Source: a virus. From it: 31,742 bases of DNA. Where the stretch lies: positions 549 through 32,290 of IMG/VR virus record IMGVR_UViG_3300030109_002938; one strand, 5' to 3'. The position numbers and the translations under genes were made by a program. The notes beneath the pieces are model-generated. The model did not search any database. It was not told the DNA's origin and worked only from the letters and a program-made list of their open reading frames with translations. This document shows positions 1 through 14,833 of the stretch, piece by piece. Every line of letters starts with the position of its first letter. Positions within the stretch are counted from its first letter, which is position 1.

Positions 1-252
1 TCTACTGGCAATTTGATTACACATCACATTATCATCATGCAGATGCTCAACAATACTCAGACACCTGATGATGCGTATGCTTTCCTGCGTTACTCTAAAC
101 GTTTGCATGATAGTGCAACAGCTTTGTTTGTGTCATACATCAATGACAGACATGGAACATCTACTGCTTCGGCATGGTACACAGGTGGCCCATGTGCCAC
201 ACTGTGGCGTGAGTTAGTAGAGAAGTTCATTACCTGTATCCCAACTAAGTAA
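1..252 (+). CDS. C-terminal part of an unidentified phage protein (5' end off the window)
   Basis: The reading frame is open from the first base to a TAA at 250-252, so this is probably the tail of a longer gene. A TTG at 13 and ATGs at 37 and 43 are possible starts, but none has a Shine-Dalgarno sequence at a good distance, which favours a truncated gene. The visible 83 or so residues contain an amphipathic stretch (AYAFLRYSKRLHDSATALFV) and no motif I recognise. The next gene starts 10 nt after the stop, so the two are probably co-transcribed. In related phages the gene before a VWA protein is often a MoxR-like AAA ATPase, but nothing in this fragment identifies it as one. Confidence 0.5.
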   Translation, partial: STGNLITHHIIIMQMLNNTQTPDDAYAFLRYSKRLHDSATALFVSYINDRHGTSTASAWYTGGPCATLWRELVEKFITCIPTK

Positions 253-262
253 AGGAGACAAC

Positions 263-1528
263 ATGAGTATAGTAACTATCCAAGAAGATATATCAAATGC
301 AGTGAACATGAATCAGATTGAGATTCAAAAGCATCCGGTATTTTCTTCTGTGTTATACGTTCAATGCCCGTTCATTGGTAGATTTATTTTTACTGATAGC
401 GTGGAGACTGCCGCCACTGACGGCATGAACGTGTTAATCAATCCTTTATTCTTTCTCAAACAAAATCCAAAACAACGACGCTACGTTCTACTGCATGAGG
501 ATTGGCATAAGATCAAGTTTGATACACATCCCATGTACGCAGAGTACGTTGCTCAGTATAGCCACGCGATTGTAAATATGGCTCAGGACTTTTCTAACGA
601 CTCTGATCTTCGGTTGATGGACAAAGACTTTGGTACACGTAATGCGTTCATTGAGTACCCTGACGTAGGTGAGGGACGATCTGTGTTGGATGACCCTAAA
701 TATGATGGTATGTCGTTTCAAGAAATCATACTAGCGTTCACCAAGAAAGATGATGACACTAAGAACAAGATCGACCCAGAGACAGGGGATCTTATCAATC
801 AGGATACAGGAGAAAAAGTTGAGAGCTACGATCAACATGATCCATTACCTGTGGATGCTGATGATGTAGAAAGCATACAAGCTCACGCAGAGAATATTCA
901 AAATGCTGCGGCTGATGGTGAGATGATGAGTTCTCGTATGAAACGTAGTGCAGGGTTAGATGGAACAGGCAGTCCGTTATCTTATGCCTTGCGTAGACGT
1001 CCTGTTGATTACAAGTCTATGATTCTTGAGTTCATGCAGGAGACAACAAAGGGATATGATCGTGAAACATATTTACCTAGTGATGTTTTGTTTCAAGATC
1101 ACATCATGCCTACTTACTACAATGAATCTGCGGCAAACATTGGTATCTTCTGTGACTCATCAGGATCTATGGCTGACATCATGGGTATTGTAGTAGGCCA
1201 AGTAGAAAACATCTGTAAACAAATCCCTGCCAAAAAGATTCAGGTTCTGTGGTGGGATAGCAGTGTTGAGAAACAGCAAGAGTTTGAAGCAGGTAAGTTT
1301 CAAGATGTTGTATCAGATTTAGAACCAACAGGTGGGGGCGGTACTGACCCATGCTGTGTAGTAGATTACGTCAAGCTCAAGCAGTATAAGTTTGATGCAG
1401 TAATTTGGATAACTGACGGGTACTTTTATAGTATGCCGGATAAGTTAGCCAAACGTGTCATGTGGTGTGTGATTGACAATCCAAGATTCAAAGCACCGCA
1501 TGGCAAATTAGTACACATTAAATCTTAA
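263..1528 (+). CDS. VWA-domain protein with N-terminal metallopeptidase-like HExxH domain
   Basis: The protein has 421 aa. The N-terminal part carries HEDWH at residues 78-82 after a hydrophobic strand, the zinc-ligand pattern of the putative metallopeptidase domain paired with VWA-like (DUF2201) proteins. An acidic linker (about 160-230) follows. The C-terminal half is a von Willebrand A fold with an intact metal-ion-dependent adhesion site: DSSGS at 298-302, the Thr of GGGGTDP at 357-363, and ITDGY at 383-387. Family knowledge: such proteins work with MoxR-type AAA ATPases as chaperone or remodelling pairs. A target in the host cell is inference only. The start is supported by AAAGGAG 5-6 nt before ATG 263. 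The next gene follows after 17 nt and is a likely partner. It is not a convincing CobT, which lacks an HExxH domain. Confidence 0.85.
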   Translation: MSIVTIQEDISNAVNMNQIEIQKHPVFSSVLYVQCPFIGRFIFTDSVETAATDGMNVLINPLFFLKQNPKQRRYVLLHEDWHKIKFDTHPMYAEYVAQYSHAIVNMAQDFSNDSDLRLMDKDFGTRNAFIEYPDVGEGRSVLDDPKYDGMSFQEIILAFTKKDDDTKNKIDPETGDLINQDTGEKVESYDQHDPLPVDADDVESIQAHAENIQNAAADGEMMSSRMKRSAGLDGTGSPLSYALRRRPVDYKSMILEFMQETTKGYDRETYLPSDVLFQDHIMPTYYNESAANIGIFCDSSGSMADIMGIVVGQVENICKQIPAKKIQVLWWDSSVEKQQEFEAGKFQDVVSDLEPTGGGGTDPCCVVDYVKLKQYKFDAVIWITDGYFYSMPDKLAKRVMWCVIDNPRFKAPHGKLVHIKS

Positions 1529-1545
1529 TAAGAAAGGAATCAACT

Positions 1546-2562
1546 ATGTTAACAAACACAAATGACTTCGACGCAGTAACAACCAACTCATCAACTGACG
1601 TAGAACAATCTGTTTCACAGAGTACATCACAGAACACTGAGTACAAGTTACACAATTACTTTTCTATCATTCAGTTTAGTGAGAGGTGTCCACAGTACAC
1701 ACGCAAAGACAGTACAGAAACAGCAAAGGTCGTGCGTGATACTGGTGCTAAGGATGACGCGGCGATTGTTACCAAGCGATTGTTCTGTAGTGATACAGCC
1801 CAGAAACATCTATCAAAGATAAAGGAGGTCAACAAGAAAGCTAAGGATCTTGTTACTACTACAGGTATTCCGTTTGCATTCAAAGGACAGCAGCTTATTC
1901 CAAACACAGAGATCATCGATGTGGAACAGAAGTTTGTTGCGTTGCAATCAGAGTATTTTACAGCAGTGGCTGCTCTGGTAGCTGCGTACTCTATCATTCG
2001 TGCAGAAGCAGCCGTTGATCTAGGCTCTATGTTTGATGCAGTAAAGTTTCCGTCTGAGTCCAGAGTTCGTGGTGACTTTGCTTTTGATTACAAGATTCTT
2101 CCGATTGCCCCGGACAATCCTTTGTCAGAGTGTGAGACAGAGAACCAGAGAATCGTAGCGCAGAGTCAGAAACGTATGATGCAACAGGTGATAGACGACA
2201 ACAGCGCTAGAGTTCGTAAGCATATCAAGGCTGAGTTAGATCGTATCATTGACCAGTTCACACCACACAAGGATGACAAAGCAAAGCAAAAGAAAATATC
2301 GCAGTCACTGTTGACTAACAGTAGAGCGCACTGCGAGACTATTCAAAAGTTTTCTGTGTTGTTTGAGCAAGACCCTGAGATATTCAAGTTGCAAGCTAGT
2401 GTACTTACTTTGTTGGACAAGATGGAGAAGTATGCAGGCACTAAGGTGGACAAGAAAACTGGTGAGCTTACGCTTGATGGACTCAAGGGTGAAGATGGTT
2501 TGGGCGCACGTAACGTATTGAAGATCGAAGCTACTAAGATTCGTGACGCTTTTAGTTTCTAA
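1546..2562 (+). CDS. DUF3150-like protein, probable partner of the VWA protein
   Basis: The 338-aa protein starts with a Ser/Thr/Gln-rich, probably disordered 30 residues. A mostly helical, charged body follows, with a short hydrophobic helix near 140-155 (FTAVAALVAAYSIIRAEAAV). Overall shape and position beside a VWA protein resemble DUF3150 proteins, which occur beside MoxR-like ATPases and VWA proteins in phages and mobile elements. I see no catalytic motif. AAAGGAA precedes ATG 1546. The closest functional guess is a structural or adaptor subunit of a MoxR/VWA complex. The family name is recalled from general similarity and gene order, not from a search. Confidence 0.5.
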   Translation: MLTNTNDFDAVTTNSSTDVEQSVSQSTSQNTEYKLHNYFSIIQFSERCPQYTRKDSTETAKVVRDTGAKDDAAIVTKRLFCSDTAQKHLSKIKEVNKKAKDLVTTTGIPFAFKGQQLIPNTEIIDVEQKFVALQSEYFTAVAALVAAYSIIRAEAAVDLGSMFDAVKFPSESRVRGDFAFDYKILPIAPDNPLSECETENQRIVAQSQKRMMQQVIDDNSARVRKHIKAELDRIIDQFTPHKDDKAKQKKISQSLLTNSRAHCETIQKFSVLFEQDPEIFKLQASVLTLLDKMEKYAGTKVDKKTGELTLDGLKGEDGLGARNVLKIEATKIRDAFSF

Positions 2563-2575
2563 GAAAGGAGTACAC

Positions 2576-2743
2576 ATGACCGGAATAAACAAGCAAGACA
2601 AGCAGGCCACTATACCAAAGGACAAACAGGTGTTGTATGACACCTGCTTTGTTCAAGCTAATGGGTGGCTAAAGTTTAATCAAGTTTTACACAAGCATTG
2701 GCTAAGCCAACAACCAAAAGAAAAGGAGAACAACAATGGATGA
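2576..2743 (+). CDS. Small protein of unknown function (55 aa)
   Basis: ATG 2576 is chosen because AAGAAAGGAG lies 5 nt upstream; an earlier in-frame start at 2543 would sit inside the previous gene with no ribosome-binding site. The protein is polar and Lys/Gln-rich, with the sequence VLYDTCFVQANGWLKFNQVL in the middle. The last residues, KEKENNNG, are not a protein motif: they are the translation of the ribosome-binding leader of the next gene, which this gene overlaps by 8 nt. The same accidental tail occurs in the gene at 3654-3863. No function is recognised. Confidence 0.65.
   Translation: MTGINKQDKQATIPKDKQVLYDTCFVQANGWLKFNQVLHKHWLSQQPKEKENNNG
2715..2738 (+). repeat. Repeated ribosome-binding leader, copy 1
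   Basis: A 24-nt element containing AAAAGGAGAACAACAATG, ending in the start codon of the gene at 2736. It is identical over 24 nt to the copies at 3355-3378 and 3835-3858. It is also translated as the end of the preceding gene (KEKENNN). Confidence 0.9.
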
Positions 2744-3353
2744 AATAACTAAGAAAGATGTAAAAGATTACTATTCATATGACGACTGCGTAGAGTTTTT
2801 GACGCACCTTGTTAACATATGTTATCAGGACAAGGAGACACAATACGTAGGGGAACCTTCAATGGTTGAGTCTTATAAATTTGTACGTTCACTTAGCAAG
2901 AAGTTATCTGATGCGAAACGTGAGAAAGTTGAGTTAGATTTATTGAATGATGGAATCTCTCGAAACGAGTTAATGTTTGTCGAGCATTTAGTTGAGCATA
3001 CTGATTCAGGTTTTGTTAAAGAATATATGGACGATCCTGTTTTTGGTTCGGCTATAAGGGTTTGTTATGATGGACAGGAGAATAAACCCGAAACAGAAAA
3101 GTCGATTGCTACACAAAACGACATTGACTTTAAAGAACTTAAAAGACTTAAAGACAAGACTATTATCTCTAGTTTTTTTATAGATGATCTGTGTTTGCAT
3201 ATTAACATTCCCCCAAGAATTGTTTATTTGATTTGGGATAAGGCATGGTTTGATACACACGCTCAAGATATTGACGGCCCTAATTGTTTCGCAGATGCTG
3301 ATATTAAAAATCTTGCGTTTAGCTTTAGAGCAATGAAACTATACAACGACTAA
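2736..3353 (+). CDS. Acidic protein of unknown function (205 aa)
   Basis: This 205-aa protein is rich in Asp, Glu and Lys and is predicted soluble and mostly helical in its first 110 residues. A charged linker around 120-135 leads to a more hydrophobic C-terminal segment (IISSFFIDDLCLHINIPPRI). I recognise no motif. The start is fixed by the repeated leader AAAAGGAGAACAACAATG. It is the first and largest of five consecutive genes using that leader, which suggests coordinated, strong early translation. A host-takeover or anti-defence role is possible from its position, but nothing in the sequence demonstrates it. Confidence 0.75.
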   Translation: MDEITKKDVKDYYSYDDCVEFLTHLVNICYQDKETQYVGEPSMVESYKFVRSLSKKLSDAKREKVELDLLNDGISRNELMFVEHLVEHTDSGFVKEYMDDPVFGSAIRVCYDGQENKPETEKSIATQNDIDFKELKRLKDKTIISSFFIDDLCLHINIPPRIVYLIWDKAWFDTHAQDIDGPNCFADADIKNLAFSFRAMKLYND

Positions 3354-3354
3354 T

Positions 3355-3378
3355 CAAAAGAAAAGGAGAACAACAATG
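3355..3378 (+). repeat. Repeated ribosome-binding leader, copy 2
   Basis: Same 24 nt as copy 1, ending in ATG 3376-3378. Here the upstream gene stops (TAA 3351-3353) before the element, so the leader is not translated in that frame. Confidence 0.9.
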
Positions 3379-3639
3379 AGTGAAAAAGACATTGATTTAA
3401 AAGCATGGTCTTCGCAAAACGGCATTTCAGCTGAAATGTTCCTTCAAGAGTACGAGATAAATGGTTATCGACAAGCGTATGTTACTGCTTCTGTAAAAGC
3501 CAGTAGCTTTCAAAACGCTCGTGAACAAGCGGAAGAAGCACTTCTTAATAGTGAAGATTATTTTTTAGAGGAAGTGTTTGGGACAACTTATGTTAGTCGA
3601 TGTTCGGATAATAAAACCAAATCTTTCCACAGTCTTTGA
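3376..3639 (+). CDS. Small acidic protein of unknown function (87 aa)
   Basis: An 87-aa soluble protein with 14 acidic and 8 basic residues. The segment YVTASVKASSFQNAREQAEE, followed by LLNSEDYFLEEVFGTTY, looks like a strand followed by helices, as in small phage proteins with a VxAxSxxEA pattern, but I cannot name a family. The start is set by the repeated leader. Its TGA stop (3637-3639) overlaps the first bases of the next copy of the leader, so the genes abut very tightly. Confidence 0.7.
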   Translation: MSEKDIDLKAWSSQNGISAEMFLQEYEINGYRQAYVTASVKASSFQNAREQAEEALLNSEDYFLEEVFGTTYVSRCSDNKTKSFHSL

Positions 3640-3656
3640 AAAGGAGAACAACAATG
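3638..3656 (+). repeat. Repeated ribosome-binding leader, copy 3
   Basis: A 19-nt core, GAAAAGGAGAACAACAATG, ends in ATG 3654-3656. It is shorter on the 5' side than copies 1, 2 and 4. It decides the start of the following gene against an upstream in-frame TTG at 3636. Confidence 0.88.
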
Positions 3657-3863
3657 GATGAAGAGATGAGTGGAGATATCCTAGAAGACGTGAGAACAGG
3701 GAGGGTGAAAATAAGCAGTGAGAGGTTTAATTCACACCTTCATGATGTACTTAGACAAGATCTTCTTGGGGATTGGAATTTTGAAGTAATCATAGAATCG
3801 GATGACGACTACGATTACATAACTATTAGCGTGCCAAAAGAAAAGGAGAACAACAATGCGTGA
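3654..3863 (+). CDS. Strongly acidic small protein of unknown function (69 aa)
   Basis: The protein has 69 aa with 18 Asp/Glu against 7 Lys/Arg (net about -11), including the run ESDDDYDY near residue 50. A hydrophobic beta-like stretch (NFEVIIE) and ITISV flank the acidic run. Small, very acidic early phage proteins are sometimes DNA mimics or inhibitors of host enzymes; that is only a possibility here. The start is at the repeated leader; the upstream TTG would lie inside the leader itself. Its last residues KEKENNNA are again the translated leader of the next gene, with an 8-nt overlap. Confidence 0.7.
   Translation: MDEEMSGDILEDVRTGRVKISSERFNSHLHDVLRQDLLGDWNFEVIIESDDDYDYITISVPKEKENNNA
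3835..3858 (+). repeat. Repeated ribosome-binding leader, copy 4
   Basis: A 24-nt element identical to copies 1 and 2, ending in ATG 3856-3858. As with copy 1, it is read through as the C-terminus of the upstream gene in the same frame. Confidence 0.9.
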
Positions 3864-4071
3864 AAAAATAGATATTGATGAATGGCTAGGTTATCAAGAT
3901 GAAGATGGTAACAAGTTCAATTTAAACATTCATAACTATGGTGGCGAAACTAAAATTTACTGTGTTTTGTACAAATGTTCTCTCGAAGAAGATGGAACTA
4001 TAAAAGATGCGACGGCAGAACTGTTAGATGCAAAGTGCTATCACTCTGAACAATTAACAAAATTATTTTAA
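3856..4071 (+). CDS. Small acidic protein of unknown function (71 aa)
   Basis: A 71-aa protein with 15 acidic and 8 basic residues. It starts MREKIDIDEWLGYQDEDG, followed by alternating hydrophobic and polar residues (KIYCVLYKC) that suggest a small beta-rich fold. Three cysteines (two of them in the KIYCVLYKC segment) are spread without a zinc-site spacing. No family is recognised. The start is set by the repeated leader, and the TAA stop at 4069-4071 merges with the next leader copy. Confidence 0.7.
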   Translation: MREKIDIDEWLGYQDEDGNKFNLNIHNYGGETKIYCVLYKCSLEEDGTIKDATAELLDAKCYHSEQLTKLF

Positions 4072-4087
4072 AAGGAGAACAACAATG
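4070..4087 (+). repeat. Repeated ribosome-binding leader, copy 5
   Basis: An 18-nt core, AAAAGGAGAACAACAATG, ending in ATG 4085-4087. This is the last copy of the series. Confidence 0.88.
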
Positions 4088-4690
4088 AGTAAAAGATTAA
4101 CAGGTGAACGACTACGTAAACAACTAGTTAAACGTGGTGTCAATGAGTACGTTATAGAACAGCGTGTAGTTGAAAGTCGGAAGGCAGGCAGTGCTAAACG
4201 TGCTAACAATATGCGAGATGTTGTGTGGCAGCGTATGTATGGAGATAGATGGGCAGCCATTGTTAAAACTTTGACAGCCATAAAGAAAAGTTGTTACTAC
4301 GAAATCAAGCGTTTGAAGACAAGTGAGATTGTTGTGTGGTCACAATTAGGGTTTGTTCTAGTGTCCAACGCCCCTACTACTGAGTACGCAACTCTATTAT
4401 GTGGTGCGTTGAAGTTTCATCTTCGCAAGTTACAGGAGCTAAAGAAACAATGGAAGCCCCTCAAAGATCACGATGACTACTTACTACATGTAGCATTGGA
4501 TGTGTTTAGAGATGAGGAATTAAACGTAGCGCACATGCGACTTTGTAAGTATGAACAGAACAGATTGCGTGAGCCTAGAAAAAACAAGGTAGGGTTGCTG
4601 TTACTAAGTGACATGGCTACAAGCCCGAAGTATAGACAAGCGAGGGAGGATTTATATGTCAAGAATGAGAGCGTATCTACACGCACGTAA
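4085..4690 (+). CDS. Basic protein of unknown function (201 aa)
   Basis: A Lys/Arg-rich, mostly helical protein of 201 aa, in contrast to the acidic small proteins before it. The first 70 residues (RLRKQLVKRGVNEYVIEQRV onward) have the charge pattern of a nucleic-acid-binding helical region. A hydrophobic stretch near 80-105 (IVVWSQLGFVLV) is too polar at its edges for a clear membrane segment. No catalytic motif or family is recognised. It begins at the fifth leader copy, and its end overlaps the next small gene by 35 nt. Confidence 0.65.
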   Translation: MSKRLTGERLRKQLVKRGVNEYVIEQRVVESRKAGSAKRANNMRDVVWQRMYGDRWAAIVKTLTAIKKSCYYEIKRLKTSEIVVWSQLGFVLVSNAPTTEYATLLCGALKFHLRKLQELKKQWKPLKDHDDYLLHVALDVFRDEELNVAHMRLCKYEQNRLREPRKNKVGLLLLSDMATSPKYRQAREDLYVKNESVSTRT

Positions 4691-4790
4691 CATACAAAAG
4701 AAAGAAAAGTATTTTACTAAGAAGAGACAAGAGCGTGTTCAACAAGGACGAGTGTGGAAGCGCAACCAACGTCAAAGAAAAGGAGAGTGA
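4656..4790 (+). CDS. Very basic 44-aa peptide
   Basis: Starting at ATG 4656 (AGGGAGGA 5 nt upstream), this peptide has 16 Lys/Arg and 3 Glu among 44 residues. It has no hydrophobic core, so it is probably an RNA- or DNA-binding peptide or disordered. It overlaps the previous gene by 35 nt. In-frame upstream starts lie deeper inside that gene without a ribosome-binding site. The function is unknown, and the composition alone makes non-coding status possible, but the strong Shine-Dalgarno and the tight junction with the next gene favour a real gene. Confidence 0.5.
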   Translation: MSRMRAYLHARNIQKKEKYFTKKRQERVQQGRVWKRNQRQRKGE

Positions 4791-4792
4791 AG

Positions 4793-4987
4793 ATGATTAT
4801 ATATGTGGTAAGGAGTGTTGGTGGTTCTTTTGAAGTTTTTTCAAATAAGAAAGACGCTGAGAAATGTAAAAAAGAAGAGGGTTATGGTGGTGTCAATATC
4901 TCTATTGATAAATACATAATTAAAACTAAAAACGAACTTATAAATGTAATGAACCTACAATCAGGCGGTTGGGATCAAATGCACTAA
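4793..4987 (+). CDS. Small protein of unknown function (64 aa)
   Basis: ATG 4793 is preceded by AAAGGAG and begins MIIYVVRSVGGSFEVFSNKK. This strand-turn-strand pattern, followed by a DAEKC helix, is common in small phage proteins that report a quantity over a chain (xVYVV..GxxxxVFSxxxxAE). The middle is Lys-rich and the end is NLQSGGWDQMH. I cannot assign a function. It is the last gene before the two-hairpin spacer, and its stop codon lies in the loop side of the first hairpin. Confidence 0.6.
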   Translation: MIIYVVRSVGGSFEVFSNKKDAEKCKKEEGYGGVNISIDKYIIKTKNELINVMNLQSGGWDQMH

Positions 4988-5033
4988 AGAACTGAGTGCG
5001 TACGTGAGAGAACAGCCTAGCAAACTGTTCTCT
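4979..5033 (+). promoter_or_regulatory. Two consecutive hairpins in the largest intergenic gap
   Basis: First inverted repeat: GCACT 4981-4985 pairs with AGTGC 4995-4999, and extends with a G-U pair and an A-T pair to 4979/5001. Second: GAGAACAG 5008-5015 pairs perfectly with CTGTTCTC 5025-5032, extending by A5007-T5033, with a 9-nt loop. Neither is followed by a clean T-run, so a simple terminator is not the best reading. An operator, an attenuator or an mRNA-stabilising structure between transcription units is more likely. TATATT at 5045-5050 could be a -10 box, but I see no good -35 at the right distance. The next gene encodes a winged-helix-like protein that could act here; that is inference. 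Confidence 0.45.
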
Positions 5034-5089
5034 TGCGGTCTGTTTATATTACGATTACAATTAAGTTTAACTATAAGAAAGGAGAACTT

Positions 5090-5383
5090 ATGCGACCGAT
5101 TAAGGTTCTTGAATTACAAAACAAACACGAGGTAGATTTAATAGCTACCTGTGTGCTTGATGTACTGAGTGATTTCAAAGGCTCAGTATCCACACAAACT
5201 CTGGTAGATGAGTGTAGTCAGGACGGCGTGTCCTCTCCTGCTACTACCAATAGAAAAATTAGTTTATTAAAAGGTAAGAATTTTATTGACAGTAAGTTTA
5301 TAAAAGATAAACGTCAGATACTAATTAAAGTTTCTTCTATTGGAATGAACTATCTAAAAGAATGGGAGAAAAATCATGCGTGA
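5090..5383 (+). CDS. Winged-helix-like DNA-binding protein (97 aa)
   Basis: The start at ATG 5090 has AAGAAAGGAG 6 nt upstream; the frame is open further upstream, but only through the hairpin spacer. The 97-aa protein shows helix (EVDLIATCVLDVLSDF), then TQTLVDEC and SPATTNRKISLLKGKNFI as a helix-turn-helix, then a wing-like KDKRQILIKVSS ending in GMNYLKEWE. This pattern resembles MarR-like or phage replication-control winged helices. It could regulate transcription from the hairpin spacer just upstream. It overlaps the next gene by 8 nt. Confidence 0.55.
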   Translation: MRPIKVLELQNKHEVDLIATCVLDVLSDFKGSVSTQTLVDECSQDGVSSPATTNRKISLLKGKNFIDSKFIKDKRQILIKVSSIGMNYLKEWEKNHA

Positions 5384-5777
5384 AAAATCAAAGCTAAGAG
5401 AAAAAATCCTAACACATATCAGTGCGAACCCTAGAACAGAGGGCTATACACCATCCTTCTTTGCGGAAAAGTTTAAGTATGATGTGCATTATTGTCGGCA
5501 TTTACTACTAGAGTTAACGGAGAAAAAAAAGATACTCAAACGTAATTATAAAGCGAAGAACAATAAGCAATGCTATAGATTTTTTTCTACTAATCAAAAA
5601 CTTGGGGCTGTTGGTATGAACAACTTTGTTAGCCCCTCTATATTTTCTAACAATAATGTAGAACCTGATCCTGAATCTATAATTAATTCTAAGGCTTGGA
5701 AAAACTTTGTGAAAGGAACACGCATACATCATTTAATGGGTGAATCAGCAAAGTTGATTAGAGGGGTAATTAAATGA
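5376..5777 (+). CDS. Second winged-helix-like protein (133 aa)
   Basis: The first 70 residues have the order helix (KLREKILTHIS), TPSFFAEKFKYDVHYCRHLLLELTEKKKI, and a basic hairpin KRNYKAKNNKQCYRFF, as expected for a winged helix. The C-terminal half is polar and probably unstructured, followed by a short helix. It starts at ATG 5376 inside the end of the previous gene (8-nt overlap), suggesting translational coupling. Two adjacent winged-helix-like proteins may work as a pair. Target DNA is unknown. Confidence 0.5.
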   Translation: MREKSKLREKILTHISANPRTEGYTPSFFAEKFKYDVHYCRHLLLELTEKKKILKRNYKAKNNKQCYRFFSTNQKLGAVGMNNFVSPSIFSNNNVEPDPESIINSKAWKNFVKGTRIHHLMGESAKLIRGVIK

Positions 5778-5992
5778 CGCACATAATATCTTTTGTTTTT
5801 GGGGCAGTTCTTATTTTGTTCTTTATGGAAATGAATGTAGGGCAGATGAAATCTCACTGGCAACACGCATATCAGGTGGGTCGTGATGATGGCTATACAG
5901 TAGGCAAAGCAGAATATGATATGACCCATGAACAACTACGGTATGAATGTGAGCGCTTACACTGGGAAATGCTTGATGGGAAAGAGAGATGA
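5774..5992 (+). CDS. Small single-pass membrane protein (72 aa)
   Basis: Residues 3-20 (HIISFVFGAVLILFFMEM) form one hydrophobic segment. A charged soluble tail of about 50 residues follows, with a helical pattern (QLRYECERLHWEMLDG). No signal peptidase site is evident, so it is probably anchored with the tail on the cytoplasmic side. Its position among early genes does not support a holin call. The start overlaps the previous stop as ATGA. Confidence 0.6.
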   Translation: MTHIISFVFGAVLILFFMEMNVGQMKSHWQHAYQVGRDDGYTVGKAEYDMTHEQLRYECERLHWEMLDGKER

Positions 5993-6279
5993 CAACCTTA
6001 ATTAAAATGGATGGGTTAGACAAAGCCCTAATTGGTCGTTCATGTATCTGGGATAGCACAGGTAGGAGAGAAGACCGTTTGATATATTCTGGCGAAAAGA
6101 TCGTTGCAATTTTAATTGCAAGAGATGGTATGACAGCAGACGAGGCTCTTGAATATATTGAATTTAATATAGAGGGTGCGTATGTGGGAGAACAAACACC
6201 TTGCGTAATGTGGTCACAATTCATGGATGATTTAGAACGGGACTACGATATTTACGGCACAGAAAAACCAGAGAAATGA
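5989..6279 (+). CDS. Conserved-type phage protein of unknown function (96 aa)
   Basis: The core ADEALEYIEFNIEGAYVGEQ, followed by TPCV, resembles a pattern I recall from many uncharacterised phage proteins (EAxEYxxFNxxGAxVGExTP). That pattern supports a real gene of an unnamed family. The N-terminal 40 residues contain an Arg-rich GRREDR. No enzymatic motif is seen. It starts in an ATGA overlap with the previous gene and ends in an ATGA overlap with the zinc-ribbon gene. Confidence 0.6.
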   Translation: MTTLIKMDGLDKALIGRSCIWDSTGRREDRLIYSGEKIVAILIARDGMTADEALEYIEFNIEGAYVGEQTPCVMWSQFMDDLERDYDIYGTEKPEK

Positions 6280-6428
6280 TTCAACCAAGAGTTTATTGCA
6301 AAACTTGTAATGAATTTAAGATGGTTGGTTACTATGGTGGACGTAATAAAAGTGGTTGGATGTGTAAACAATGTCACAACAAAGAAAGGAATAAAACAAA
6401 TGAACGGGAAGATCGCAGAGAAATTTAA
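6276..6428 (+). CDS. 50-aa zinc-ribbon protein
   Basis: This short gene starts at ATG 6276 (ATGA overlap with the previous stop) and ends at TAA 6426-6428. It encodes two CxxC knuckles, C8-KT-C11 and C30-KQ-C33 followed by H34, separated by 18 residues, then a highly charged tail (NKERNKTNEREDRREI). This is the layout of small phage zinc ribbons and HNH-associated zinc-binding domains, but no HNH catalytic residues are present. It probably binds zinc and may bind nucleic acid or a polymerase. Its last 29 nt overlap the next gene and include that gene's ribosome-binding site. Confidence 0.75.
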   Translation: MIQPRVYCKTCNEFKMVGYYGGRNKSGWMCKQCHNKERNKTNEREDRREI

Positions 6429-7299
6429 AGACAACCTAGCGCGCTGCTTAGACAAAGCAGATAAAGATAATGATGAAACATTAAGTGATGCTGCTCGACA
6501 ACTTGAGTTAGATTTTGGGATATCACAAAAGGAACAAGTAGGACTAAACATATCTCCTTTAACAAAATCAGTAACTCAATCTATTCTGGTGGCCACGCCC
6601 ATGTATGGCGGTATGTGTACAGGGCATTATACTATTGCACTAATGAACTCCATCAACACCCTCAAAGGTTTACAAGTAGAGACTTTGTTAGCTAGTTTAA
6701 TGAACGAGTCTTTGATACCTCGTGCAAGGAATGAGTTAGTCAGGTTGTTCCTAAACGAAACGCAATGCTCGCACATAATGTTTATAGATGCTGATATGTA
6801 TTTTAACGATCAAGCCATTGCTACTTTGTATAAAGCAGATAAAGATGTAGCTTGTGGCATCTATCCAAAGAAAGAATTGGATTGGGGTAAAGTTTCTACG
6901 GCAGCGAACAAAGGCAAAGCTGACTTACCTAATCACTCTTCTTCGTTTGTATTAAACCTACCGCATGGTGTTAATAAAGTAGAGCCTGATGCTGATGGTA
7001 TGGTGGAGGTACGACATGGCGGCACAGGATTTATGCTTATTAAAAGAGAAGTGTTTGAGAAGTTAGCGCCACACGTGCCTGAGTACAGAGCATCGACAAA
7101 ACAAAACGAAAAGGGAGAGTTTGTTAAACCTCTTGTAAAACAATTCTTTGACACAAGTATTGATGAGACAGGCTGTTTATTATCTGAAGATTATCATTTC
7201 TGTGCTTTGTGGAGAAAGCATGGTGGGAAAGTGTATGCGAGTACAAAACTTAAATTTAATCACATAGGTACACACATTTTTGGAGGGAGTATTGAATGA
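6400..7299 (+). CDS. GT-A type glycosyltransferase-like protein
   Basis: From ATG 6400 the protein has 299 aa. GAAAGGA 9 nt upstream supports this start over an ATG at 6310, whose extra 30 residues would be out-of-frame zinc-ribbon sequence. The N-terminal 50 residues are charged. Then come SILVATPMYGGM, a conserved-looking nucleotide-sugar strand, the helix SLIPRARNELVRLFL, and HIMFIDADMYF, which holds the DxD metal-binding motif (DAD). GGTGFMLIKREVFEKL and LSEDYHFCALWRKHG follow the usual order of phage and Anp1/GT2-like transferases. It may modify DNA bases or a surface glycan; the acceptor is not visible. Confidence 0.75.
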   Translation: MNGKIAEKFKDNLARCLDKADKDNDETLSDAARQLELDFGISQKEQVGLNISPLTKSVTQSILVATPMYGGMCTGHYTIALMNSINTLKGLQVETLLASLMNESLIPRARNELVRLFLNETQCSHIMFIDADMYFNDQAIATLYKADKDVACGIYPKKELDWGKVSTAANKGKADLPNHSSSFVLNLPHGVNKVEPDADGMVEVRHGGTGFMLIKREVFEKLAPHVPEYRASTKQNEKGEFVKPLVKQFFDTSIDETGCLLSEDYHFCALWRKHGGKVYASTKLKFNHIGTHIFGGSIE

Positions 7300-7556
7300 T
7301 ATTTAAAAAACAAGAGCCGGGTACAACAGATACACAGGTGGGTGGCACACATTATAAAGATATGGGTAACGCGCAGCCGTGGGAAGTTTTAAGTAAGTGG
7401 TTAAGTCCTACACAATTTAAAGGGTATTTGTTAGGAGAAGCTATTGCGTATCTTGCACGAGTGAATATAAAAGATACCCCCGGCAAGGGGGGTCTACAAG
7501 ATATTAAGAAAGCACACCATACTCTGACGCACTTAATAGAACAGTTAGAAAAGTGA
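7296..7556 (+). CDS. DUF3310 domain protein
   Basis: An 86-aa protein with the hallmark pattern VGGTHYKDM, QPWEVLSKW, GEAIAYLARVNIKDTPGKGG and a C-terminal helix of the DUF3310 family, found in many phages as a stand-alone protein or fused to nucleotide kinases. The biochemical role of the family is not settled; a link to nucleotide metabolism is often assumed. The whole family length is present, so nothing suggests truncation. The start overlaps the previous stop (ATGA) and the end overlaps the next GTG start. Confidence 0.85.
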   Translation: MIFKKQEPGTTDTQVGGTHYKDMGNAQPWEVLSKWLSPTQFKGYLLGEAIAYLARVNIKDTPGKGGLQDIKKAHHTLTHLIEQLEK

Positions 7557-7846
7557 CACCAGAAAAAAAAGTAAAGAATAAAGTTGTAAAGATTTTAAAA
7601 GAATTAGGGGCGTACTATTTCTACCCTGTACAGACTGGGTATGGAAGAGCAGGTATCCCTGATATTGTTGGATGCTATCGAAGTCATTTCTTTGGCATCG
7701 AATGTAAGGCCGGTAAAAATAAAGCTACAAGTTTGCAACTTGTTGAGTTAGAAAAGATACGAGATGCAGAGGGTATAGCAATAATTATTAGTGAGGAGAA
7801 CGTGAATGAAACAGCGAGACTTATTAAGGAGAAGATCGGAAAGTAA
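7553..7846 (+). CDS. VRR-NUC domain nuclease
   Basis: A 97-aa stand-alone VRR-NUC domain of the PD-(D/E)xK superfamily. The start is GTG 7553 in a GTGA overlap. The active-site elements are in order: Glu4 in the first helix, GIPD with Asp37, and GIECKAG with Glu50 and Lys52, then Gln62 in the following helix. Family knowledge: such phage proteins cut branched or junction DNA. Position immediately before the polymerase suggests resolving replication intermediates or degrading host DNA. Its last 41 nt are shared with the polymerase gene. Confidence 0.88.
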   Translation: MTPEKKVKNKVVKILKELGAYYFYPVQTGYGRAGIPDIVGCYRSHFFGIECKAGKNKATSLQLVELEKIRDAEGIAIIISEENVNETARLIKEKIGK

Positions 7847-9884
7847 ATACCTTGCAGGTAACACAGGGTTGTATCTGAGTGCGCCGTATGAGCGCATACT
7901 AGTTATTGATTTTGAAACTAGGTGGGATAAAAAAGACTACACATTAAGAAAACTTACAACAGAAGAATACATTCGACATGAGAAGTTTAAAGCCTTTGGT
8001 GTAGGCTATCGGTACTACGGAGAAGATGAGGTAACTTGGGTATCTGAAAAAGATTTGCCTGAGTTCTTTGACTCTATACCGTGGGATACGACTGCAGTGT
8101 TGGCACACAATGCACAGTTTGATGTAGCTATTCTGTCGTGGGTGTATGGGCACACACCTTGTTTTATATTTGATTCACTGTCAATGGCTCGTGCGCTGCG
8201 AGGGCTAGAAGCAGGCAACAGTTTGATGCAGCTTGCCAAAGAGTTTGGCTTACCTCCGAAAGGTGATGCGGTTCATAGCACTGATGGGTTAGAATTTTTA
8301 ACTCCTGAAATAGAACAAGAGCTTAGTGATTACTGCAAGCATGATGTTGTGCTATGTGAAGAAGTATTTAATCGCTTGTATAACGTATCAACTAAGAGTT
8401 GGAAGTTTAAAGGCTACCCTAAGAAAGAGTTAAAGCTAATTGACATGACATTAAAAATGTTTGTCAATCCAGTGTTACAGTTAGACAGCGATATGCTACA
8501 GGTTGCTTTGGAAGAGGAGCAGCAAAAGAGAAAGTCTTTGTTAGCTAAACTTAATGTAGAAGAAAAAGATTTAGCTAGTAACGATAAGTTTGCAGAGGTG
8601 CTACGGAGTATGAGTATCAAACCTCCGACAAAGATTAGTGTGCAGACAGGTAAAGAAGCATACGCATTTGCAAAGAACGATGCACTATTTCAACAGCTTT
8701 TAAATTCTACCAATGAAGACATAGCTTCTTTGTGTCAGGCTAGACTGGCTGTTAAGTCTACACTGGAGCGCACCAGAGCGCAGAGGTTCTTGGATATATC
8801 TAAGCGAGGAGCATTACCTGTACCTCTTAACTATTATGGAGCGCACACTGGGAGATGGTCAGCTAGTAAAGGATCAGGCTTAAACTTACAGAACTTAAAA
8901 AGAGGTTCGTTCCTACGTAGTTCTATCATGGCCCCAAAAGATTCTATGCTTATAGTGTGTGATCTATCACAGATTGAACCTCGTATCCTAGCGCACCTGA
9001 CAGATGACTACAACATGCTTGATATATTTTCAAGAGGTGGAGATCCTTACGCAGCGTTCGGGGCAAGGATGTTTAACATTCCCGGCATGACAAAGAAGAC
9101 TCACCCTGAGTTACGGCAGTCAGCTAAGTCAGCATTACTAGGCGCAGGGTATGGGCTAGGGTGGTCAGCTTTTGCTGCTCAGTTATTAACAGGGTTTCTA
9201 GGAGCGCCCCCTCTCAGATACACAGAAGAAGATGCTTACAAGTTAGGGGTAACGACAGAAGATGTGTATGACTTTCTTGATATGGAAGATACAAAGCAAA
9301 GACTTAGTGATATAGCGTGTACCTGTACAAAGAAAGAATTAATCATACACGCTGTGACTGCTAAAAAGATTATAGATAAGTATCGGGAGGCCGCAGCACC
9401 TGTTAAAAGTTTTTGGAGATGGTGCGGTGATCGTATTGATGATTCCTTGTCTGATGATGGGAATGACTTTAATAAAGGTAAGGTGTATACTTATAAATGT
9501 TTACAAGTGCAGTACGAAAAAGTAGTATTGCCAAGCGGTCTGTGTTTACGGTATCCTAATTTAAGACCGGATAAAGATGACAAAGGTCGTTTGCAGTGGG
9601 TGTACGGTGAGAAGAAGAAACGATTGTACGGTGGTAAGTTAACCGAGAATATAGTTCAAGCCGTTGCTCGATGTGTTATGACAGATGGAATGCTACGAAT
9701 ACAAAAGAGGTATTCGTGTGTGTTAACTGTGCATGACGAAGTTGTATGTGTTGTACCAAAGGTGGAGGAAGAAGAAGCGAAAACTTGGGTTTTGGCTCAG
9801 ATGACTATGGAGCCAAAGTATTTGCCGGACATTCCTCTTAACGCTGATGTTGATTCAGCACTTAGATATGGAGATGCTAAATGA
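7806..9884 (+). CDS. polA: Family A DNA polymerase with 3'-5' exonuclease domain
   Basis: The replicative polymerase has 692 aa. The exonuclease domain has D35 and E37 (VIDFET), D106 (HNAQFD) and Y176/D180 (YCKHD), so proofreading looks intact; there is no 5'-3' nuclease domain. Polymerase motif A is D386-LSQIE391, motif B has R437, K441 and Y449-G450, and motif C is H643-D644-E645. The position equivalent to E. coli Phe762 is Leu445 (K441 plus four). The start at ATG 7806 has GAGGAGAA 7-8 nt upstream and overlaps the nuclease gene by 41 nt. The DnaJ-like CxxCxGxG insert described for phage HMO-2011 polymerase is not seen. Confidence 0.97.
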   Translation: MKQRDLLRRRSESKYLAGNTGLYLSAPYERILVIDFETRWDKKDYTLRKLTTEEYIRHEKFKAFGVGYRYYGEDEVTWVSEKDLPEFFDSIPWDTTAVLAHNAQFDVAILSWVYGHTPCFIFDSLSMARALRGLEAGNSLMQLAKEFGLPPKGDAVHSTDGLEFLTPEIEQELSDYCKHDVVLCEEVFNRLYNVSTKSWKFKGYPKKELKLIDMTLKMFVNPVLQLDSDMLQVALEEEQQKRKSLLAKLNVEEKDLASNDKFAEVLRSMSIKPPTKISVQTGKEAYAFAKNDALFQQLLNSTNEDIASLCQARLAVKSTLERTRAQRFLDISKRGALPVPLNYYGAHTGRWSASKGSGLNLQNLKRGSFLRSSIMAPKDSMLIVCDLSQIEPRILAHLTDDYNMLDIFSRGGDPYAAFGARMFNIPGMTKKTHPELRQSAKSALLGAGYGLGWSAFAAQLLTGFLGAPPLRYTEEDAYKLGVTTEDVYDFLDMEDTKQRLSDIACTCTKKELIIHAVTAKKIIDKYREAAAPVKSFWRWCGDRIDDSLSDDGNDFNKGKVYTYKCLQVQYEKVVLPSGLCLRYPNLRPDKDDKGRLQWVYGEKKKRLYGGKLTENIVQAVARCVMTDGMLRIQKRYSCVLTVHDEVVCVVPKVEEEEAKTWVLAQMTMEPKYLPDIPLNADVDSALRYGDAK

Positions 9885-10183
9885 GAATACCAAAAAAAGT
9901 AAAGGTAGGTAGAACTAACTACCTAATACACAAAGTAACTAAGATGGATAAAGTTGGAGCAATGGGAGAAATTGATTACGATACTAAAGAGATCACCATT
10001 GCATCACGTAGTAGTAGAAAGCCGCACAGAAAGTTTTCTAAGAAAGAAATATCTGATACATTCTGGCATGAGATCACTCACGCTATTCTTAAAGATATGA
10101 ACTCGAAGCTACATACTAACGAATCATTTGTGACTACGTTTGCAAACAGACTTACAACAGTAATTAGCACAGCAAAGTTCTGA
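9881..10183 (+). CDS. Small zinc metallopeptidase-like protein
   Basis: A 100-aa protein with HEITH at 63-67 in a helix preceded by DTFW, and a downstream Glu81 (TNESFV) placed as the third zinc ligand in related phage proteins. The N-terminal half is a small beta region (LIHKVTKMDKVGAMGEIDYD) followed by ITIASR. It is much shorter than SprT or IrrE/ImmA proteins, so only a minimal peptidase core is present. The substrate is unknown. The location between polymerase and nuclease genes, in an ATGA overlap, suggests an early role. Activity is inferred only from the motif. Confidence 0.75.
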   Translation: MRIPKKVKVGRTNYLIHKVTKMDKVGAMGEIDYDTKEITIASRSSRKPHRKFSKKEISDTFWHEITHAILKDMNSKLHTNESFVTTFANRLTTVISTAKF

Positions 10184-10851
10184 TGGAGCAGAAGATACGC
10201 TGGTCACATTCATCATTAAAAGATTATGAGGGGTGCGCTCGTAGGCACTATGAAGTAAAGGTATTAAAAAATTACCCGTTCATAGAAACTAAACAAGTTA
10301 TCTACGGAAAAGAATTTCATACAGCCGCAGAAAACTTTGCTAAAGATGACACCCCACTACCAAAACAATTTTCTTTTTCTCAACAGTTACTAGACTCTCT
10401 TCTTAAAAAAGACGGAAGAAAGTTTCCTGAGTATGCGATGGGGGTAACAAAAAACATATCCCCATGTAGTTTCAATGACAAGGATGCGTGGGTGAGAGGA
10501 ATTATTGATTTACTAATTGTTGATGATGAGAACTTTACAGCGTGGGTGTTTGATTATAAAACAGGGAATGACAAATACCCTGACATAGATCAATTAAAGT
10601 TAATGTCTTTGTTAACATTTGCACACTTTCCCCACGTTAAAGAAATAAAAGCAGCGTTACTTTTTGTAGTTAAAAACAGTATTGTAAAACATAAAGTTAC
10701 AGTAGCTGATAGAGATAAGTTGTGGTGGGAGTACCGGGAGAGAGTTGCAAAACTTGAAGCATCTTATGCAAACGATGTTTGGAACCCCACGCAGACACCC
10801 TTATGTAATTGGTGTCCTGTCAGTAGTTGTGAGTTTAATCCAAAACATTAG
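10183..10851 (+). CDS. Cas4/RecB-like PD-(D/E)XK nuclease with Fe-S type cysteines
   Basis: A 222-aa nuclease in which the order of motifs fits the RecB/Cas4 family: His46 (GKEFH), Asp109 (GIIDL), Asp124-Tyr-Lys126 (VFDYKTG) and Gln137 (DIDQLKLMSLL). Cys18 near the N-terminus and Cys208, Cys211, Cys216 at the C-terminus match the four-cysteine arrangement that holds a 4Fe-4S cluster in Cas4 and AddB. Family knowledge: such enzymes act as 5'-3' or single-strand DNA exonucleases in recombination. The absence of any CRISPR array or Cas1/Cas2 argues for a phage recombination role. It starts 1 nt before the previous stop ends (TGATG). Confidence 0.88.
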   Translation: MEQKIRWSHSSLKDYEGCARRHYEVKVLKNYPFIETKQVIYGKEFHTAAENFAKDDTPLPKQFSFSQQLLDSLLKKDGRKFPEYAMGVTKNISPCSFNDKDAWVRGIIDLLIVDDENFTAWVFDYKTGNDKYPDIDQLKLMSLLTFAHFPHVKEIKAALLFVVKNSIVKHKVTVADRDKLWWEYRERVAKLEASYANDVWNPTQTPLCNWCPVSSCEFNPKH

Positions 10852-10866
10852 TTGAAAGGAGACTAA

Positions 10867-12438
10867 ATGGAAATTGTAGATAACAAGGCGTTGTTACTAC
10901 GCACGCGCAGTCCAGACAAGTACAACATAATACCCTGCAGTAAAGTTTTATCAGAAGAAAATGGTATTAGTTTAGTTGCTGTACGGTGGGGCTTAGAAGA
11001 AGTAAGAGTATTAAAAAATTTAGGAGTAAGAGAAGTACCTTCTCCTATCAATGGAAAGTACTTATGGCCCGGACGGTTTGTTCCAATGGAACATCAGAAA
11101 GAAACATCTTCGTTTCTAACATTAAATAATAGATCGTTTGTATTCTCAGAACCCGGCACTGGTAAAACATTATCAGCGTTGTGGGCAGCAGATTACTTGA
11201 TGAAAACTAAAAAGGTTAGGCGTTGTTTAATCTTATGTCCTGTATCTATTATGCACAGTGCGTGGATGAGTGATCTTACTAATAGTATTATTCACCGCAG
11301 TGCAATAGTAGCGCATCATCAAAAAGCATCGCGTCGTGTAGAGATGGTGCAGGGAGATTATGAGTTTGTCATTATTAATTATGATGGATTAAATCTTGTA
11401 GCTGATGAGATCAATGCCAATGGTAAGTTTGATTTAGTAATTGCTGATGAAGCCAATGCTTACAAGAACGTATCAACTAAACGCTGGAAGTCTTTGAACA
11501 AGATACTAAGGCCAGATACTTTATTGTGGATGATGACAGGCACACCTGCAGCACAATCTCCTCTTGATGCGTATGGTCTGGCAAAGCTAGTTAATCCAAA
11601 AGCGATACCAAGATTCTTCACAGCGTGGAGAGATTTAACCATGAACAAAATAACAATGTTCAAGTGGCTCCCCAAGAAAGATGCACAAGATAATGTCCAT
11701 CGTGTGCTACAACCTGCTATCCGATTTACGAAGCAACAGTGCTTAGACTTACCCCCTGTAATAACTTTGACTAGAGCAGCTAAGCTAACAGCACAACAAC
11801 AAAAGTATTATTTAATGTTGAAGCAAGAGATGATTGTTAAAGCTGCTGGAGAAACAATCAGTGCTGTCAACGCAGCTACTGAGGTTAACAAGCTACTACA
11901 AATTAGTGCAGGTGCAGCATACGCTGACAACGGAGAAGTAGTTGAGTTTGATTGTAGCTCTCGACTAAATGTTTTGATGGAAGCGTTAGAGGAAACAGAT
12001 AGAAAGGTCTTAGTGTTTGCTACCTATCGACACTCTATAGATACTATTGTTTCTTATTTAGAATCAAAAAATATATCGTGTAAAAAAATTGATGGATCAG
12101 TTAGCGTATCTAAACGCACACAGATATTTAAAAACTTTCAAACTACAAGTGACCCTAGAGTTTTGATAATACAACCACAGTCTGCAGCACACGGTGTCAC
12201 ACTTACTGCAGCAGACACTGTTGTATTTTGGGGGCCAGTTATGTCTACTGAAACCTACATTCAATGCTGTGCTAGATCAGATCGTAAAGGTCAGGATAGC
12301 GACAAGGTAACAGTAATACATATCGAAGGCAGTGACATCGAGCGTAAGATGTTTAAACGATTAGCTTCACGAGTAAAGAACAATAATTTATTAGTTGAAC
12401 TATATGAGGAGGAAATAAAAACGCTTGACAAAAAGTAA
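10867..12438 (+). CDS. SNF2-like superfamily 2 helicase/ATPase
   Basis: A 523-aa ATPase with a full set of SF2 motifs: EPGTGKT at 95-101, a DEAH-like DEAN at 194-197, TGTPA at 224-228, and the C-terminal RecA lobe with LVFATYRHS, IDGSVSVSKR and motif VI QCCARSDRKGQ at 466-476. The first 70 residues are a small extra domain typical of the phage members. Family knowledge: these translocate on double-stranded DNA and act in replication restart or recombination. GAAAGGAG precedes ATG 10867. The neighbouring Cas4-like nuclease may partner with it, as RecB-like nucleases do with helicases. Confidence 0.92.
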   Translation: MEIVDNKALLLRTRSPDKYNIIPCSKVLSEENGISLVAVRWGLEEVRVLKNLGVREVPSPINGKYLWPGRFVPMEHQKETSSFLTLNNRSFVFSEPGTGKTLSALWAADYLMKTKKVRRCLILCPVSIMHSAWMSDLTNSIIHRSAIVAHHQKASRRVEMVQGDYEFVIINYDGLNLVADEINANGKFDLVIADEANAYKNVSTKRWKSLNKILRPDTLLWMMTGTPAAQSPLDAYGLAKLVNPKAIPRFFTAWRDLTMNKITMFKWLPKKDAQDNVHRVLQPAIRFTKQQCLDLPPVITLTRAAKLTAQQQKYYLMLKQEMIVKAAGETISAVNAATEVNKLLQISAGAAYADNGEVVEFDCSSRLNVLMEALEETDRKVLVFATYRHSIDTIVSYLESKNISCKKIDGSVSVSKRTQIFKNFQTTSDPRVLIIQPQSAAHGVTLTAADTVVFWGPVMSTETYIQCCARSDRKGQDSDKVTVIHIEGSDIERKMFKRLASRVKNNNLLVELYEEEIKTLDKK

Positions 12439-12474
12439 AATATTTGACAAACTTTTTCTTTAAAGGAGATTCTG

Positions 12475-12879
12475 ATGACTACAGAAAATACAGTACCACT
12501 CGACAAACTTGCGGCTTGTCGTAGAAAAATTAAAGCTAAGATTCAAGAGATTGATAAGGATGCTGAGAATAAAAAGAAGTCTTTACAAGACAAACTAACT
12601 TTACTCGATCAAGGTATTAAAGATCAGATGTTAGCGTTGGGAGTTAAGAGTGTAAAGACTGAGCAAGGCACTATCATTCTTAGTGAGAAGACAACGTATG
12701 CTACGAATGACTGGGCAGAGATGGACAAGTTTGTTGTAGAGAATGCAGTGCCTAGTTTGTTGCAGCGCCGCATCTCGCAAACAAACATTCAACAGTACCT
12801 ACTTGAGAACCCTGACAATATTCCTGCTGGGTTGTATAGCAATACTAACTATCAAGTATCAGTACGGAAACCCACATGA
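12475..12879 (+). CDS. Coiled-coil protein of unknown function (Gam-like guess)
   Basis: Residues 9-50 are a charged coiled coil (RRKIKAKIQEIDKDAENKKK onward). The second half has LGVKSVKTEQGTIILSEKTT followed by a helix and a beta-type end. A helical hairpin followed by a small beta domain is reminiscent of host-nuclease inhibitor Gam-like proteins, but I see no decisive motif. The length of 134 aa is shorter than typical Gam. It begins with TTAAAGGAG 7 nt upstream and overlaps the next gene by 4 nt. A role linked to DNA ends or replication would suit its neighbours. Confidence 0.5.
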   Translation: MTTENTVPLDKLAACRRKIKAKIQEIDKDAENKKKSLQDKLTLLDQGIKDQMLALGVKSVKTEQGTIILSEKTTYATNDWAEMDKFVVENAVPSLLQRRISQTNIQQYLLENPDNIPAGLYSNTNYQVSVRKPT

Positions 12880-13580
12880 GTTTTATTAAACTATCAATAG
12901 CAAATAGCGTATTTAAGTTGCGTGGGTCTAGTTCTAAGGGAGTAACAGAGTTGGATGTTGTGTTGATAAACGCTGCTAAGAACTACAGTAGAGTTTATTA
13001 CACATCTACTTATGACTCAAACAATCCACGCAGTCCTGATTGTTGGTCTAGTAATAACGTAAAGCCGGATATGTTATCTCGTGAGGTACAGTCTGATACA
13101 TGTAGCACTTGTGAAAAGAATATAGCAGGATCAGGAGTGGGTGCTACAAGGGCGTGTAGGTTTTATCAATACGTCGCGTTGTTATTGGCTAATGATTTAG
13201 GCGGCGCAGTTATTCAGTTAGCTGTGCCGGGGTCTTCTATATTTGGTAAGACAGATGGTGGAAGCTACTCAATGAAATCTTATGCTAAATATTTAGTGCA
13301 AGAAAACATTGATCCTGAAATGCTTGTCACTAAAATGTCTTTTGACTCAACCTCTATGGCAGCAAAGATATTATTTAAACCTGCTAGGTGGTTGACTGCT
13401 GAAGAACAAGCTCTTGTTTTAAACCGGGGTAAGTCGGATGCTGCAATAAGAGCAATCAAGATGTCGTTTGCACCTGCGAGTGTGAGTAATATTGATGCAG
13501 CTAATTTAAAACTTACTGACAAAAACTTTGCAGTGTTGTCGCAAGCTATGGGCATGACCGCAGATATTAAATTTAATTAA
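12876..13580 (+). CDS. Cys4 zinc, probable ssDNA-binding protein
   Basis: The 234-aa protein starts with a beta-rich N-terminus. Four cysteines follow, at C56 (SPDCWS), C76 and C79 (TCSTC) and C94 (RACRF), with KNIAGSG between them. This cysteine and SPDCWS pattern resembles ssDNA-binding proteins of some marine and enteric phages, where a zinc site stabilises an OB-type fold. The annotation rests on that resemblance plus the position between the helicase and the primase. The last 24 residues carry the TDKNFAVLSQAMGMTAD motif, repeated at the N-terminus of the next protein. Confidence 0.6.
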   Translation: MSFIKLSIANSVFKLRGSSSKGVTELDVVLINAAKNYSRVYYTSTYDSNNPRSPDCWSSNNVKPDMLSREVQSDTCSTCEKNIAGSGVGATRACRFYQYVALLLANDLGGAVIQLAVPGSSIFGKTDGGSYSMKSYAKYLVQENIDPEMLVTKMSFDSTSMAAKILFKPARWLTAEEQALVLNRGKSDAAIRAIKMSFAPASVSNIDAANLKLTDKNFAVLSQAMGMTADIKFN

Positions 13581-13591
13581 AGGAGTATTTT

Positions 13592-14817: not shown

Positions 14818-14833
14818 GAAAGAGGGAGACTCA

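Follow-up and report, generated by a model that had tools for sequence, protein, structure and literature searches.

The window analysed here is a stretch of 31,742 nucleotides from the IMG/VR virus record IMGVR_UViG_3300030109_002938 (positions 549 to 32,290), and the features described lie on its plus strand unless stated otherwise. Its left end holds a conserved block with the genes for a VWA-domain protein (DUF2201, Pfam PF09967; 263–1528) and a DUF3150 protein (Pfam PF11348; 1546–2562), followed by a gene of 55 aa (2576–2743), hereafter the anchor gene, which is the final gene of this block in three close relatives as well. Behind it lies an array of five genes, i.e. g1 (205 aa; 2736–3353), g2 (87 aa; 3376–3639), g3 (69 aa; 3654–3863), g4 (71 aa; 3856–4071) and g5 (201 aa; 4085–4690), the last of which forms the right anchor of the array. 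None of the five belongs to a known family, as Pfam and PHROG searches gave no convincing match for any of them. They had been described as small genes in a first-pass annotation of the window, which suits g2, g3 and g4 but not g1 and g5 with about 200 aa each. Further downstream, the window encodes a PD-(D/E)XK exonuclease (10183–10851; PF12705, phrog_69 exonuclease) and a probable single-stranded-DNA-binding protein (12876–13580), as well as a reverse-strand ORF of 2880 aa (17803–26445) that takes up more than a quarter of the window. Immediately before the window begins, near base 540 of the record, about ten Ns between two copies of a short repeat (TCTACTG-N10-TCTACTG) mark a scaffold gap, i.e. 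an assembly join.

Each gene of the array is preceded by the sequence AAAAGGAGAACAACAATG, here called the leader, which occurs in five exact copies at 2721–2738, 3361–3378, 3639–3656, 3841–3858 and 4070–4087, each closing with the ATG of the ORF that follows. Dinucleotide shuffles yield 0.09 copies on average. The copies and start codons listed in the first-pass annotation are thus exact and beyond chance, and its statement that three copies agree over 24 nt was confirmed as well, the shared sequence being CAAAAGAAAAGGAGAACAACAATG at 2715–2738, 3355–3378 and 3835–3858. No sixth copy was found in the window at up to three mismatches, nor a further one elsewhere in the 32,290-base record at up to two. 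The leader is composed of AAAAGGAG, the spacer AACAACA and the ATG, sometimes with CAAAAG in front, and contains the Shine–Dalgarno site, with AAGGAG at normal spacing. Within the window, the AACAACA spacer is confined to these five genes; the remaining gene starts have different spacers, and a general leader of the whole phage was therefore rejected. The proteins encoded by g1 to g5 are mutually dissimilar (best E 0.14), which agrees with the earlier view that simple duplication is not involved and led us to reject gene duplication carrying the leader along. A scan of viral contigs for the exact leader returned 104 stretches, with a single copy in all matches listed, while at two mismatches multiple copies were seen only in the close relatives of the window and a few other loci. 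Therefore, the 18-mer alone also arises from common ribosome-binding-site composition.

The joints between the genes are tight, with gaps of 22, 14 and 13 nt at three of the leader joins and an overlap at the two others, and the cassette genes look like one operon. Read in the frame AAA GAA AAG GAG AAC AAC AAT GNN TRA, the leader encodes KEKENNNx followed by a stop. Copies 1 and 4 use this frame as the end of the upstream gene, so that the last residues of the anchor gene (QPKEKENNNG*) and of g3 (PKEKENNNA*) are encoded by the leader, whereas copies 2 and 5 keep the frame behind an earlier stop. The leader had been taken for a lead-in before genes; it does precede their starts, but copies 1 and 4 double as coding sequence, and it is thus not purely intergenic. 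The stop of the upstream gene is supplied by codons 2–3 of the next gene, and starts of the form ATGNNTRA are enriched behind leaders in the window (5/6, against 3/27 at other genes; P=0.001). The relatives show the same trend, with 20/26 against 37/218, although homologous genes are counted repeatedly here and the counts are not independent. Several exceptions (ATGATAAAA, ATGATTATA and ATGAAAGTG) begin with ATGA, i.e. with a stop in another frame. Folding of the leader RNA was no better than in shuffled sequences, with no notable structure or strong hairpin, and the leader is not palindromic. Likewise, promoter- and terminator-like sites in the region 1400–5500 did not exceed shuffles (sigma-70-type promoter scan), and no terminator was found at the leaders.

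Relatives were gathered from IMG/VR by DNA-polymerase and cassette-protein searches, are metagenome contigs throughout and are labelled here by number, the record of the window itself being G000. The close relatives are G001 (3300006919_001409), G002 (3300025071_000169), G003 (3300001472_000119), G004 (3300030106_005687; L111) and G006 (3300030061_002218; L204), and the more distant ones G005 (3300029787_000521; L195) and G009 (3300030107_004741; L203). Annotated phages gave no nucleotide match to window positions 1–20000 and no match for the g1, g2 or g3 proteins. Searches of bacterial genomes (genome_contigs) with g1 and the DNA polymerase retrieved no relatives and pointed to no host.

Gene content and order differ among these genomes. 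While the window reads anchor-L-g1-L-g2-L-g3-L-g4-L-g5 (L, leader), G001 has anchor-L-g3-L-g5, and both G002 and G003 have anchor-L-g2-L-g5. In G004, the order is g2-L-g5 with a differing gene upstream, so that g5 ends the array in all four of these relatives. The order in G005 is MoxR-like gene-L-g3-L-g1-VWA gene, and in G006 it is x-g4-L-g2-L'-g3', with other leaders and a second g3 elsewhere, behind the VWA gene. Accordingly, g2 occurs in G002, G003, G004 and G006, and homologues of g3 are found in G001, G005, G006 (two) and G009, in each case with differing neighbours. The first-pass annotation had named two observations that would speak against its reading. One, an invariable co-occurrence of the five genes, is contradicted by these gene sets and orders. 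The other, the same leader at unrelated genes, does occur in one relative, but there the extra copies stand before additional small genes, in one case at the edge of a block, which fits shuffling. The order of the MoxR-like ATPase, VWA and DUF3150 genes also varies between relatives (window 1–2562, L195 and L204), i.e. MoxR-VWA-DUF3150, MoxR-DUF3150-VWA or MoxR-g3-g1-VWA-small genes-DUF3150, and the cassette genes occupy differing points around this trio.

When the joins are compared, the same gene ends are found in front of different gene starts. The tail of the anchor gene, ACAACCAAAAG, precedes g1, g3 or g2 depending on the phage, the flank upstream of leader copy 1 being matched where g3 or g2 stands behind it; the leader with different genes behind it, which the first-pass annotation had proposed to look for in related genomes, is thus found. 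The g3 tail GCGTGCCAAAAG precedes g4 in the window, g5 in G001 or, with GCGTACC, g1 in G005. Similarly, the g2 tail CAGTCTTTG precedes g3 or g5, being found again where g5 follows in G002 and G003, and the g4 tail AATTATTTT precedes g5 or, together with its leader, g2 in G006. At each join, one side is mostly 0.85–1.00 identical and the other about 0.2–0.45, with the switch at the leader; this count allowed no gaps, and a few low values stem from small insertions.

Comparisons of larger blocks agree with this picture. The conserved block ends at the leader when the window's record is compared with G001 and G003 (96–97 % DNA identity) and with the shorter G002 (93 %). Between G001 and G003, the match (96.4 %) sets in at the leader in front of the MoxR-like ATPase, with unrelated genes upstream. 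Across all pairs, the array edges lie on the leader in nearly all cases, except for one edge in L111, at the 3′ end of g2, and one in G005, in the 5′ part of g3. We also enumerated every subset of retained cassettes, with the window flanks joined at leaders. The best model was anchor-g3-g5 for G001 (93 %) and anchor-g2-g5 for G002 and G003 (92 %), against 78–80 % for the next-best orders. Unlike partners have 8–27 nt of homology in common at the joins. The informative joins are few, coming from only about seven contigs of the group, and do not polarise the direction of gain or loss. Variation that does not involve this leader is seen at other spots of the same genomes (4791/4989 and 5937/5998).

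The cassettes are also shared across larger distances. The segment 2713–3378, which runs from leader to leader and contains g1, is 96.6 % identical to G005 at the DNA level, although G005 and the window share only about 30 % identity in the VWA protein and about 20 % in the DUF3150 protein. The g4 gene is 95 % identical in G006, where it stands behind that phage's own leader AAAGGAGAGTGGAG. In G009 (L203:4965–5375), g3 runs on in frame, through a changed leader, into a second small protein, and homologues of both parts of this fusion stand separate in G006 (L204:7250–7438), with leaders between.

Different leaders are found in different lineages. G006 carries GGAGAGTGAAG (GGAGAGTGAAGATG) four times before neighbouring genes, GGAGAGTGGAG (GGAGAGTGGAGATG) before three genes and GGAGAGCCAGT (AAAAGGAGAGCCAGTATG) before two. 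In a second lineage (L130, L138 and L149) the leader is AAGGAGAAGAACAC, and there a gene of 60 aa keeps its tail and this leader, but the next gene differs between L130 and L138. A joint with this shuffling behaviour is thus seen, as far as contig comparisons go, in at least two lineages, each with its own leader. In eight related records, 9/74 pairs of consecutive genes have identical spacers, against a shuffled mean of 1.8 (0/5000 shuffles); the window alone has 4/10 pairs against 0.74 (P=0.0004), and G006 alone also departs from shuffles (P=0.005). Identical pairs were likewise in excess in 75 more distant loci with related polymerases (18/800 against 3.2; 0/1000 shuffles) and in 90 other loci (8/458 against 2.0; 0/1000 shuffles), some of the loci being related to each other and the counts hence not fully independent. 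The neighbours that share a spacer nearly all encode unrelated proteins. At L052:10023–10610, the leader AAAGGAGAACRACA is common to two adjacent paralogous small genes, and in this case duplication does explain the sharing. Of the mobile or homogenised cassette suggested previously, homogenisation receives moderate support from spacer sharing beyond shuffles and from leader types that differ by lineage, but the leader is better described as a shared cassette edge than as an independently mobile element.

Taken together, the comparative evidence for shuffling is strong, and the contigs point to small genes being lost, gained and reordered, most likely at one repeat that also serves as a translation start. 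The earlier interpretation is supported in part: its core idea, that the leader is a site for recombination between relatives at which genes are swapped, draws support from gene turnover and from the position of the joins. We therefore favour, with a probability of about 0.7, the reading that leader-bounded cassettes are shuffled by recombination through the short homology of the leader. Each cassette would consist of a leader and its gene, with the leader as the common edge of exchangeable units in a variable region of this uncultured phage. Recombination between two leader copies would regenerate one intact leader every time, and each product would therefore keep a start site and the upstream stop; since the leader carries the ribosome-binding site, a swapped gene would arrive with a working translation start. 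Within one genome, such an exchange would delete the genes lying between the copies, while between co-infecting phages it would replace or insert genes. Short leader homology presumably drives the exchange, by an annealing/exonuclease pathway of the phage or by template switching during replication, and translation may be coupled across the joint. A wider proposal, to which we give slightly less than even odds, is that the whole family uses a cassette platform with the leader as joint. Under its docking rule, a gene beginning with ATGNNTRA (or ATGA) would provide the upstream stop along with its own start, so that almost any small gene would fit and be translationally coupled, and each lineage would spread its own version of the leader over its array.

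As to the machinery, the scan of the window proteins revealed no known annealing recombinase, with Red-beta/RecT, Erf, Sak and Sak4 considered. The PD-(D/E)XK exonuclease could possibly act as a recombination partner. A protein of 234 aa (12876–13580), considered as a candidate annealing recombinase, looks gp32-like by its fold. Its structure model (pLDDT 79) matches best a phiC31 integrase–RDF fusion (Z 7.5), followed by the RB69 gp32 core (Z 6.5, weak), both values lying in a range that may reflect a shared arrangement only; we regard it as probably a gp32-type single-stranded-DNA-binding protein. The model of its neighbour of 314 aa is of low confidence. The C-terminal end of the 234-aa protein (NFAvLsQAMGMTAD; 13521–13566) and the N-terminal start of the 314-aa protein (NFAaMaEAMGMNAD; 13619–13664) resemble each other, and a similar pair is present in relatives. 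The motif may be a binding peptide that two DNA-binding proteins have in common.

The homology of 8–27 nt at unlike joins is short for RecA-type exchange, which counts against recombination through the leader. Selection for intact genes would favour gene borders even without homology and hence also put joins between genes. It is conceivable, though unlikely, that the leader is nothing more than the optimal ribosome-binding site for this host and that only those products of illegitimate recombination survive in which intact genes were exchanged. Such an origin would agree with the AAGGAG at normal spacing, with the genes being intact across all joins and with G005, G006 and G004 carrying some genes behind partly different leaders. 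It does not account for an AACAACA spacer that is absent from every other gene of the window, for identity over up to 24 nt that includes bases without an expected role in 16S pairing, or for leader types that vary by lineage yet are common to neighbouring unrelated genes beyond shuffles, and the variation among orthologous leaders (AACAGCA, AACAACT) speaks against an absolute sequence constraint. The different spacers at the same genes across lineages, together with the short and A-rich conserved part and the lack of notable RNA structure or of a promoter or terminator excess, makes it quite improbable that the leader is an RNA- or protein-binding site, of phage or host, that coordinates translation or transcription, with shuffling being incidental. 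What speaks for such a regulatory element is the SAS of cluster K mycobacteriophages, which, as far as described in PMC3203893, is alike in position, asymmetry and Shine–Dalgarno content.

The arrays of small genes with a repeated element between them and a changing order would also be expected if a dedicated enzyme recombined the leader site-specifically, as in integrons. We hold this to be very unlikely, considering that no integrase or transposase was recognised among the window proteins scanned, that the leader has neither a palindrome nor a strong hairpin, and that leader types vary by lineage with edges that do not fall on one fixed base. Metagenome assemblers may misjoin contigs at short repeats, and the exact coincidence of repeats and joins as well as the 10-N gap with its flanking repeat just upstream of the window would be in line with such an artefact. 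An origin in assembly is equally hard to believe, however: the order anchor-g2-g5 is found in two contigs of different metagenomes, the reading frames of the cassettes are unbroken, a second lineage shows the pattern with a leader of its own, and the longest k-mers normally used by assemblers exceed repeats of 18–24 nt.

Recombination through the leader bears on the long-standing question of whether shared short boundary sequences produce the mosaic joins of phage genomes, or whether these joins form at random and are then sorted by selection. What is new here is direct comparative evidence that shuffling can take place at a ribosome-binding leader, drawn from the same gene ends with different gene starts. 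As these ends and starts meet at one sequence of 18–24 nt with a clear job in translation initiation, the question of mosaicism becomes testable. Leader shuffling would offer phages an easy way of trying out and expressing new accessory genes, and searches with the leader may help to locate fast-turnover accessory genes whose function is unknown.

Several known systems invite comparison. In integron arrays, small genes without promoters are flanked on each side by a repeated element and are gained, lost and reordered as units; these arrays are a functional analogy to the leader cassettes, without membership being claimed. In contrast to integrons, the window proteins scanned, from a record not known to be complete, include no recognised integrase, and the leaders show no attC-like hairpin; exchange based on homology is more likely than exchange of the integron type. 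In lambdoid phages, mosaicism involves boundary or linker sequences. Rad52-like phage recombinases are described as carrying out relaxed homologous recombination at short or diverged homology (De Paepe et al. 2014, PMC3945230), the assays reported there using homologies of hundreds of bases or more. Both cases resemble the leader in that growing phages exchange gene modules where homology is short or diverged, but here the joint is a leader of 18–24 nt that is reused before many different genes.

The SAS/ESAS of cluster K mycobacteriophages are described as short asymmetric repeats directly before start codons (Pope et al. 2011, PMC3203893), with a 13-nt SAS consensus, GGGATAGGAGCCC, matched with at most two mismatches (PMC3203893, PMC12699233). 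According to the sections of PMC3203893 that deal with them, SAS lie mostly in gaps of >50 bp, about half of them with 17-bp inverted repeats, are located in the non-structural half of the genome, vary in presence between relatives and are treated as expression signals, not as recombination joints. Like SAS, the leader is a repeat with a Shine–Dalgarno core before the starts of unrelated genes, in one orientation, in the non-structural half of the genome and with a presence that varies between relatives. However, AAAAGGAGAACAACAATG does not fit the consensus GGGATAGGAGCCC, and the tight or overlapping leader joins without inverted repeats differ from the spacing of SAS. The PeSL cassettes of T4-type phages (Arbiol et al. 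2010; Comeau et al. 2014, as summarized in PMC4503421) are mobile regulatory repeats between variable genes for which modular shuffling has been proposed, and combine an early promoter with a terminator stem-loop. They share with the leader the position of a repeated element at the edges of shuffled modules, whereas the leader, as judged by the sigma-70-type promoter scan, carries no such promoter and terminator stem-loop and is a ribosome-binding element only, inside an apparent operon. The leader lacks defining features of each and is a member of neither, with SAS as its nearest counterpart in form and PeSL in proposed function.
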